A DNA stretch of 64,000 nt from NCBI RefSeq assembly GCF_027286325.1, contig NZ_CP114588.1:930001-994000 (forward strand), written 5' to 3'. The stretch comes from Salinivibrio kushneri. GTDB taxonomy: Bacteria; Pseudomonadota; Gammaproteobacteria; Enterobacterales; Vibrionaceae. Made by a program: the position numbers and the translations under genes. Within the stretch, counting starts at the first letter, position 1. Each line of letters starts with the position of its first letter. Shown here piece after piece: positions 22,216-40,956 of the stretch. Under the pieces are notes generated by a model that saw nothing but the letters and a program-made list of their open reading frames with translations, made no database searches and was not told the origin of the DNA.

Positions 22216-22259
22216 AGGAAAGAAAAGAAAACGTGGCATAGCCGGGGAGCCATGCCACG
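22216..22259 (-). terminator. Minus-strand rho-independent terminator
   Basis: Read on the minus strand, CGTGGCAT and ATGCCACG enclose a 12-nt loop and run into TTTTCTTTTCTTTCCTTTT. It would end transcripts from the HIT gene after a 3' stretch of about 230 nt, or end a separate small RNA. Confidence 0.75.
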
Positions 22260-22461
22260 GGTGTCAACGACACCTTCGCTTGCTGCCGAGGGCGGGGAAC
22301 CCGCCCTGGTAAAAAAATGGGCTGGTCAGGCGTGTATTGTCGTAACCAGTGGCGTCAATATACCGTGATTTGAGCTTGAGCCGTTATGACTAAACCGCCA
22401 ACCTCGTTTTGACAGACATGCAATTAAGGTGTTGATAATTAATGGCTTATTTCTGTCTGTC
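22260..22461. repeat. Cluster of inverted repeats in a convergent spacer
   Basis: Besides the terminator beside it, this spacer holds GGTGTC/GACACC with a 3-nt loop (22260-22274). It also holds a perfect AGGGCGGG/CCCGCCCT with loop GAA (22289-22307), CTGGT/ACCAG (22322-22349) and GACAGACA/TGTCTGTC (22411-22418 and 22454-22461). The last encloses an ATTAA/TTAAT pair and is followed by TTTTGATTTT on the plus strand. No coding frame is convincing. This may be a structured 3' region or a small RNA; no known RNA family was recognised. Confidence 0.5.
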
Positions 22462-38831: not shown

Positions 38832-39094
38832 TATTGGTTCCTATTTGATTTATATGTTAATTGAAAGAATGATAACAGTATAATTGAAATATACAATATG
38901 ACCTATATTAATACGCCATATTATTCATTAATTGCAAGTTAACCGCAAATTTGACTTTAATTCCATTGTCTTTTTGAATCAGATGTCTAAAAAAATAGAG
39001 GGTGAGACATGTTTTATTGGCATTGAGTGAGATGGTGTTTAGTCGACGGTTTTTCAACCATAAATAGTTGCGATAGTAAGCACGTTGTGTAGAA
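38832..39094. other. Non-coding spacer between hns and the lysine riboswitch
   Basis: This AT-rich 263-nt spacer must carry the hns promoter (minus strand) and the promoter of the riboswitch transcript (plus strand). I see no convincing ORF and no named RNA in it. Confidence 0.5.
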
Positions 39095-39107
39095 TGCACC
39101 ACGCTTA

Positions 39108-39280
39108 ACGTAGAGGTGCGTTGTTTATAAGTCGTGCGCAAGAGGGTGATACCGATGAAAGCGCATAAAAGGAAACAACGCCGAAGCCAATCAGGTCATC
39201 ACACCGATTGAGCTGGGGCTGTTACCGAATAGGGACAGCACTGCCATAGTACTTGGAAATACACTATGGAGCGCTACTGT
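39108..39280 (+). promoter_or_regulatory. Lysine riboswitch aptamer (L box)
   Basis: The five-helix lysine aptamer is readable. Conserved GTAGAGGTGCG opens it. P2 pairs GCGTTGTTT with AAACAACGC, with an inner TGCGC/GCGCA and a kink-turn-like segment. CGCCGAAG follows. P3 is CAATC/GATTG, P4 is GCTGT/ACAGC and P5 is CCATAGT/ACTATGG. GGAGCGCTACT closes the core. The match to the L-box core is strong. P1 is short (GTAG with CTAC). It lies directly upstream of an NhaC-type carrier. Confidence 0.93.
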
Positions 39281-39372
39281 ATGTAGGAGGCAAGCTGTTT
39301 GCCGTGTGATACCACGCCTTACCGTCTTCATTTCTGCAGTAGATCTCCAACCACCTGGTTGACACTGAGATC
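39268..39372 (+). promoter_or_regulatory. Expression platform of the lysine riboswitch (translational switch)
   Basis: GGAG-CG-CTACTG at 39268-39279, the 3' strand of P1 and its flank, can pair with CAGTAG-AT-CTCC at 39337-39348. The overlapping GATCTC at 39342-39347 can instead pair perfectly with GAGATC at 39367-39372, just before the ATG at 39373, around a CAACC/GGTTG hairpin. The two pairings exclude each other. There is no T run, so control is at translation: lysine binding keeps P1, freeing GATCTC to mask the ribosome site. Confidence 0.75.
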
Positions 39373-40956
39373 ATGAACTTAACAGATTTTTCTTCATCCG
39401 CTTTATCACTACTTCCCCCTTTATTGGCACTCGGCCTCGCGATCGCCACACGACGGGTTTTATTGTCGTTGGGTATGGGGATTGTACTGGGTACCGTATT
39501 ACTGACTGACTTTTCGTTTGTCTCGGCAGGGCAGTACTTGCTTGATGTGGTGACCGGTCTATTCTTTGCAGACGGTGGCTTAAATAGTTGGAATCTGAGT
39601 ATTCTCGGCTTCCTTATTTTGCTGGGGATGATCACTGCACTGTTATCCTTGTCTGGTGGCACACGTGCTTTTGCTAATTGGGCGCAAAGTCGAATTAAAA
39701 GTAAGCGTGGCGCGAAACTACTGGCTGCTTTTCTTGGCGTATTTATTTTTGTCGATGATTATTTCAATAGTTTGGCGGTAGGGGCCGTTTCTCGTCCTGT
39801 GACGGATCGCTTCCACGTTTCTCGAGCGAAACTGGCTTACATTCTTGATTCCACGGCAGCCCCTATGTGTGTTATCACGCCGGCATCAAGCTGGGGGGCT
39901 TATATCATTACCGTGATTGGCTCGATTTTGGTGGCACATGGCGTGACGGATTACACGGCGCTAGGAGCATTTGTCACCATGATCCCAATGAACTTCTACG
40001 CTATTTTTGCCTTGTTGTTAGTGTTTGCGGTGGTTTGGTTTCAACTGGATATTGGCCCGATGCGTCAGTTTGAATATCAGGCGAAAAAAGGCAGCCGATT
40101 GGGCGATGAAAGTGAAAACTGCGCTGACATTTGCGACGACCTAGGGATTGAAGAAAGTGATAAAGGCAGTGTGGCTGATTTGGTCGCCCCCATTATTATG
40201 CTGGTAGTGGCGACGGTAGGTGCGATGCTATATACCGGCGGGCTGGCATTGGCAGCCGATGCTCAGGCCTTTTCTCTCCTTGGGGCCTTTGAAAATACCG
40301 ATGTCGGCATGTCATTACTGTGGGGTGGACTGGCGGGTTTGGCTGTGTCCTTGGTGATGACAGGTAAACAAGGCATTGCCGTATCAGATATTGCGAAAAC
40401 CCTTTGGGTAGGTGCAAAGTCTATGTTTGGCGCGATCCTCATTCTGTTATTTGCTTGGTCGATTGGTCATATTATTGGTGACTTACAAACTGGCAAATAT
40501 TTGTCGTCCTTAGTTGAGGGGAACTTGCCGGCGCAACTCTTGCCTGTGGTGCTCTTCTTGTTGGCGGCAGTGATGGCCTTCGCAACCGGTACGTCGTGGG
40601 GGACGTTCGGTATTATGCTACCGATTGCGGGCGACCTAGCTGCTGCGACCGATATCGCACTGATGTTGCCGATGTTGTCGGCCGTATTAGCCGGCGCCGT
40701 ATTCGGTGATCATTGCTCACCTATCTCGGATACCACTATCTTGTCTTCAACAGGTGCAAGGTGTGGGCATATTGACCACGTCGCTACTCAGCTCCCTTAT
40801 GCAATTGGTGGGGCTGTTGTCTCAACCGTAGGCTTCATGGTGTTAGGCTTTACCGCGTCACTTCTTTGGTCACTGATGGCGGCCGTGTTTGCGTTCGTTG
40901 CACTATGTGCTGGGCTAATGTGGCTTAAAAAACGACCATGCAAATTGGTAGGTTAA
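39373..40956 (+). CDS. lysW: NhaC-family Na+/H+ antiporter-type carrier, predicted lysine transporter
   Basis: The 527-residue inner-membrane protein has about 11-13 hydrophobic helices and NhaC-superfamily motifs: FIFVDDYFNSLAVGAVSRPVTDRF near residue 120, STAAPMCVITPASSWGAY near 158, ATGTSWGTFGIMLP near 400 and GAVFGDHCSPISDTTILSSTGA near 440. A charged cytoplasmic loop lies near 235-265. NhaC-type genes behind lysine riboswitches have been predicted to be lysine carriers (LysW) by comparative genomics. The riboswitch here supports that role over sodium/proton exchange alone. A terminator follows. Confidence 0.88.
   Translation: MNLTDFSSSALSLLPPLLALGLAIATRRVLLSLGMGIVLGTVLLTDFSFVSAGQYLLDVVTGLFFADGGLNSWNLSILGFLILLGMITALLSLSGGTRAFANWAQSRIKSKRGAKLLAAFLGVFIFVDDYFNSLAVGAVSRPVTDRFHVSRAKLAYILDSTAAPMCVITPASSWGAYIITVIGSILVAHGVTDYTALGAFVTMIPMNFYAIFALLLVFAVVWFQLDIGPMRQFEYQAKKGSRLGDESENCADICDDLGIEESDKGSVADLVAPIIMLVVATVGAMLYTGGLALAADAQAFSLLGAFENTDVGMSLLWGGLAGLAVSLVMTGKQGIAVSDIAKTLWVGAKSMFGAILILLFAWSIGHIIGDLQTGKYLSSLVEGNLPAQLLPVVLFLLAAVMAFATGTSWGTFGIMLPIAGDLAAATDIALMLPMLSAVLAGAVFGDHCSPISDTTILSSTGARCGHIDHVATQLPYAIGGAVVSTVGFMVLGFTASLLWSLMAAVFAFVALCAGLMWLKKRPCKLVG

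Follow-up and report, generated by a model that had tools for sequence, protein, structure and literature searches.

The window analyzed here, a stretch of 64,000 nucleotides from Salinivibrio kushneri (contig NZ_CP114588.1), carries on its forward strand a leader (39103-39372) that precedes an open reading frame of 527 amino acids (39373-40956), coding for a lysW-like carrier of the NhaC superfamily. A preliminary description of this DNA, made from the letters alone, had placed a lysine riboswitch in the leader, and the covariance search bears this out: the Rfam model RF00168 matches positions 39103-39284 of the forward strand with 123.5 bits (E 1.4e-32), against a gathering score of 30, and does so from end to end (model positions 1-182 of 182), so that the whole aptamer is spanned. 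Under the Rfam structure, helix P1 of the S. kushneri leader consists of four pairs only, formed by GTAG (39110-39113) and CTAC (39274-39277). Lysine riboswitches are common in the Vibrionaceae, being present in 326 of the 329 genomes of the family. Upstream of the aptamer, a possible promoter on the same strand (TTGCGA-16-TAGAAT, 39068-39095) is a weak pattern match (9 of 12), as two promoter-like sites were found against 2.1 expected by chance; both of its hexamers are kept in all eight aligned Salinivibrio leaders. In the same genome, a second lysine riboswitch (L002, G000:C1:279742-279929, 85 bits) stands ahead of a frame that starts like what we take to be an aspartokinase. Moreover, the minus strand of the window holds a match to tfoR (RF02100) at 22222-22314, scoring 75.5 bits where 70 are required; tfoR is a small RNA regulating tfoX in Vibrio.

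We then focused on the stretch that joins the aptamer to the start codon, where two mutually exclusive helices can be drawn, all on the forward strand. In the anti-sequestor, GGAGCGCTACTG (39268-39279), which contains the 3' strand of P1, pairs with CAGTAGATCTCC (39337-39348) through four plus six pairs separated by a two-base internal loop. In the sequestor, bases 39342-39347 of that same middle strand, GATCTC, pair with GAGATC (39367-39372), the final six bases ahead of the ATG at 39373, and the helix continues via AACC/GGTT into a hairpin covering 39342-39372. The computed energy of this hairpin is -10.8 kcal/mol, a value equaled by none of 200 shuffles, and the fold of 39268-39348 reaches -26.7 kcal/mol, equaled by four of 200, both stretches having been chosen post hoc. 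The letters and coordinates given in the preliminary description for these strands and for the ATG are all exact, and its claim of two exclusive pairings, the first of which uses the P1 3' strand, is upheld, as both are in place and far exceed slid controls in 96 related leaders. The observation of an aptamer followed by two exclusive helices is thereby confirmed as real.

The comparison drew on 171 upstream stretches, collected as 87 (the window included) plus 84. Removal of 31 without the P1 strand by pattern, 6 without a usable ATG and 10 duplicates left 124 usable leaders. The P1-strand pattern is stricter than Rfam, which finds the riboswitch in the pattern-rejected stretches L234, L235 and L236; in a set of 20 stretches that includes these three, the Rfam scan detected it in 15. 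The 96 leaders considered in detail comprise 73 from Vibrionaceae, 11 from Moritella and its kin, 10 from family f25, one from f11 and one of the three from f10, the families having been picked after the table had been seen. In each leader, fit to the P1 strand was the sole criterion for choosing the middle strand, which was then tested against the six bases before the ATG. Accordingly, the anti-sequestor count (941 of 960 cells pair; slides of as many as 6 bases give no more than 557) reflects a strand chosen for that fit, whereas the sequestor count (522 of 576; sliding the start strand by as many as 8 bases gives no more than 359) does not. Among the Vibrionaceae, the middle strand reads CAGTAGATCTCC or CAGTAGATCTCT in 71 of 73 leaders, and AGATC forms the five bases right before the ATG in all 73. 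The linker of the aligned leaders varies freely, unlike the platform strands. Within the sequestor, the outermost pair fails in 41 of the 96 leaders and the second pair in 12. Two Photobacterium leaders (L117 and L125) show ATA at the conserved start position, after GAGATC or GAGATT.

Compensatory changes in both helices, which the preliminary description had proposed as a check, were indeed found. Base 39346 has 39270 as its partner in the anti-sequestor and 39368 as its partner in the sequestor. Positions 39270, 39346 and 39368 read A, T and A in 85 of the 96 leaders; in all 11 leaders of Moritella and its kin, and in none of the other 85, they read G, C and G. This triple change probably represents one evolutionary event, yet it satisfies both helices together, and the joint change of a base and its two alternative partners speaks, on sequence grounds alone, for an RNA with two states. 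In addition, C-G replaces T-A at 39278/39338 in 9 of the 10 f25 leaders, and T-A replaces C-G at 39347/39367 in the single f11 leader.

Conservation with compensatory change thus holds for the 96 leaders, but the expectation that relatives keep both helices does not extend to every riboswitch-bearing family. Exclusive helices running from P1 to the start codon, with the compensatory change that marks a translational riboswitch, occur in the 96 leaders of the picked families but are for the most part lacking from the remaining 28 of 124 (15 from f6, 6 from f9, 4 from f13, 2 from f10 and 1 from f6b), where the GAGATC partner is mostly missing. Mean sequestor fit in f6, f13, f6b and f9 ranges from 1.4 to 3.2 of six pairs, and the two f10 leaders outside the 96 have four of six pairs each. 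Most f6 leaders (L178-L195) retain the anti-sequestor strand, e.g., CAGTCGCCCTCC, together with a different start region that lacks GAGATC. As these 28 leaders are largely without sequestor fit, not all lysW leaders share the platform. In family f12, all 19 stretches upstream of carrier homologs fail the P1-strand pattern, and Rfam detects the riboswitch in two only (L206 and L212).

The behavior of the platform was also computed. With the P1 strand free, the platform alone gives a mean anti-sequestor probability of 0.90 (75 leaders of the f1 set, Moritella contributing two); with the P1 strand held, mimicking the lysine-bound aptamer, the mean sequestor probability of the platform alone is 0.87. 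In 94 of the 96 leaders, holding the strand lifts the sequestor probability by over 0.05; in the window leader it goes from 0.03 to 0.98. The six bases before the ATG are more open with P1 free in 92 of 96 leaders when 3 coding bases are included and in 94 of 96 when 9 are, and less open in none. With longer coding stretches, accessibility follows the model only partly, because early codons can pair with the bases before the ATG: when 24 coding bases are added, these six bases are more open with P1 free in 39 leaders and less open in 19, and with 36-41 coding bases the counts are 56 and 8 of 96. For the window, openness in the free state falls to 0.08 with 24 coding bases (against 0.01 with the strand held) and to 0.04 with 36-41, so that with at least 24 coding bases the six bases are computed to be mostly paired in either state. 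When the aptamer helices of the window are held, both states have the same ensemble energy, -81.8 kcal/mol, and the unconstrained leader adopts a non-aptamer fold at -93.8 kcal/mol with a sequestor probability of 0.95; these are equilibrium, ligand-free folds, which indicate two close states and not which one the cell uses. A start-codon hairpin with the early codons was considered as a third state and rejected, as it reaches only -1.8 kcal/mol in the window and 124 of 200 shuffles are as good, though each of the 96 leaders allows such a pairing, with 4 to 6 of 6 pairs.

Altogether, these results make a lysine-OFF translational switch, as first read, well supported. In the proposed mechanism, when lysine is absent the P1 3' strand would pair with CAGTAGATCTCC, the sequestor could not form, and ribosomes would start on the carrier. 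When lysine is present, the aptamer would hold P1 and free CAGTAGATCTCC, whose GATCTC would then pair with GAGATC, and translation of the carrier would be lowered. Lysine binding, the sign of the control, translation as the controlled step and lysine as the substrate of the carrier are what we infer, and it seems to us quite probable that the choice made by the P1 strand sets the helix over the bases before the ATG, such that lysine turns down translation of a likely lysine carrier. The ribosome site under that helix is weak, consisting of GAG at 39367-39369, which ends three bases ahead of the ATG and has a predicted strength of -2.7 kcal/mol.

Two other ways of controlling the carrier through this leader were weighed. 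The aptamer could function as described and yet act mainly on transcription or on mRNA decay, lysine exposing a Rho or RNase E site and translation being affected second. In E. coli, according to PMC5584792, the lysC switch affects ribosome access and RNase E alike, and the linker of 89 bases between aptamer and ATG offers room for such sites; what is conserved in the platform, on the other hand, is its complementarity to the start region, with the linker left free. Moreover, 38832-39500 contains no terminator-like site, in agreement with the earlier remark that a T run is absent, although shuffles give just 0.3 such sites, which makes this weak evidence. Transcription termination was rejected on this ground and, given the absence of a terminator-like site together with a conserved platform on the start codon, translation is taken as the controlled step; control exerted mainly on transcription or decay is considered improbable, although RNase E or Rho may take some part, as in E. 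coli lysC.

The Salinivibrio switch might also operate via a translated leader, in which ribosomes on a TTG frame would open the sequestor and then reinitiate at the carrier. The window does contain an AGGAGG (39286-39291) followed by a TTG frame of 25 codons (39299-39376); the stop codon of this frame and the carrier ATG overlap (ATGA), and the predicted strength of AGGAGG, -10.2 kcal/mol, far exceeds that of the carrier's own site. This AGGAGG is found in all seven distinct Salinivibrio leaders, in six of which the TTG frame also terminates on the start codon, but in none of the remaining 117 leaders, from outside Salinivibrio. Furthermore, the variable columns of the TTG frame fall 4, 6 and 3 times on codon positions 1, 2 and 3, the opposite of a coding pattern, and an inserted base breaks the frame in one Salinivibrio leader (L008). 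Being confined to Salinivibrio and devoid of a coding pattern, coupling through this frame was set aside as a candidate and is retained only as a rival that we regard as very improbable.

As for the product of the regulated gene, the description of the carrier as NhaC-type stands at the level of the superfamily, given 301.7 bits to Pfam PF03553 (Na+/H+ antiporter family) against a cut-off of 23, but not at the level of function, as the NhaC Na+/H+ antiporter equivalog (TIGR00931) is matched with 48 bits against a cut-off of 370 and was rejected. The carrier is found at E 1e-100 or better in 139 of 141 sampled Vibrionaceae genomes, and a sequence search with it returned no PDB structure of a relative. 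As the PF03553 and RF00168 matches jointly reveal, the carrier is an NhaC-superfamily member behind a lysine riboswitch, as expected of LysW, and it is likely a lysine carrier. Whether NhaC genes linked to riboswitches transport lysine or protons is nevertheless debated in the accessible part of PMC11477304. The switch could work as described here while the carrier serves as a Na+/H+ antiporter for pH control at low lysine, an alternative that PMC11477304 and PMC5584792 raise for NhaC-type genes preceded by such riboswitches, and one that agrees with the family name of PF03553. The weak equivalog match speaks against it, and so, indirectly, do the prediction of lysW as a lysine transporter, which PMC545781 credits to Rodionov 2003, and the site for the lysine regulator LysX that lysW has in Desulfovibrio desulfuricans according to PMC545781. 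We consider an antiporter role unlikely, if less so than the two alternatives that concern the mode of control, and favor a lysine carrier.

The kind of switch proposed here is already known. In 2003, Rodionov is said to have described, for Vibrionales as well as other Gammaproteobacteria, an L box ahead of lysW/NhaC genes, with lysW predicted to be a lysine transporter. Lysine riboswitches ahead of lysW (NhaC superfamily) in Vibrionales are likewise covered in the accessible part of PMC5584792, and the present case shares with the published ones the aptamer family (RF00168), the gene family (PF03553) and the bacterial order. As far as that part of the source goes, the published descriptions give neither a letter-level platform nor compensatory changes, and otherwise there is no difference. 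In the same source, again as far as its available text goes, the E. coli lysC switch is alike in having a lysine aptamer and control at the ribosome site; it precedes a different gene, and the present comparison covers its ribosome-site part. The letter-level platform is, in this respect, an ordinary detail on a lysine-OFF switch of known kind, and the finding reads, as far as sequence can tell, as a clean example of a gene whose translation is predicted to be controlled by lysine.

Finally, the carrier leads to a gene family known under another name. Its best NCBIfam family is Tet(35) (NF000013), with 535.7 bits, under the cut-off of 750. The ortholog from V. harveyi NBRC 15634 (L097, 901-2472) passes that cut-off with 816.4 bits, and it lies behind the same riboswitch (131.1 bits) and platform as the Salinivibrio carrier; the orthologs L104, L116 and L127 fall below, so that one of the four singly scanned passes. 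In a larger set, 4 of 26 Vibrio orthologs match the Tet(35) model at E 1e-226 or better, which corresponds to about the cut-off. The model, of 369 positions, covers residues 165-524 only of the 524-residue V. harveyi carrier, and its match begins at residue 165, an invariant methionine, so residues 1-164 of the carrier seem to be absent from the named Tet(35) protein. Judged by these matches, the carrier behind this lysine riboswitch and the gene family filed as tetracycline efflux Tet(35) are one and the same. Downstream of the carrier in five Vibrio loci (L088, L097, L120, L130 and L132), a histidine operon leader (RF00514) was observed, which the scan of the window did not find.

We lean slightly towards the view that Tet(35), listed among tetracycline-resistance genes by surveys of Vibrio genomes, represents the C-terminal part (360 residues) of a housekeeping carrier for lysine, switched off by a conserved lysine riboswitch at the ribosome, and that its presence would be uninformative on tetracycline resistance; our confidence in this reading was lowered a little because so few orthologs, singly scanned or in the larger set, reach the Tet(35) level. 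The open-access literature yielded no link of tet35 to a riboswitch or to a lysine transporter among the matches listed, at title and abstract level, bracketed spellings of the name being unsearchable. According to the accessible part of a 2025 survey (PMC11921324), tet35 is ubiquitous in the surveyed Vibrio genomes, with 71.7-99.4% identity, and the 62 southern sea otter isolates tested were susceptible to tetracycline. A housekeeping carrier regulated by lysine, if true, would explain the ubiquity of tet35 alongside tetracycline susceptibility, and this link to Tet(35) represents a practical gain that may outweigh the switch itself.
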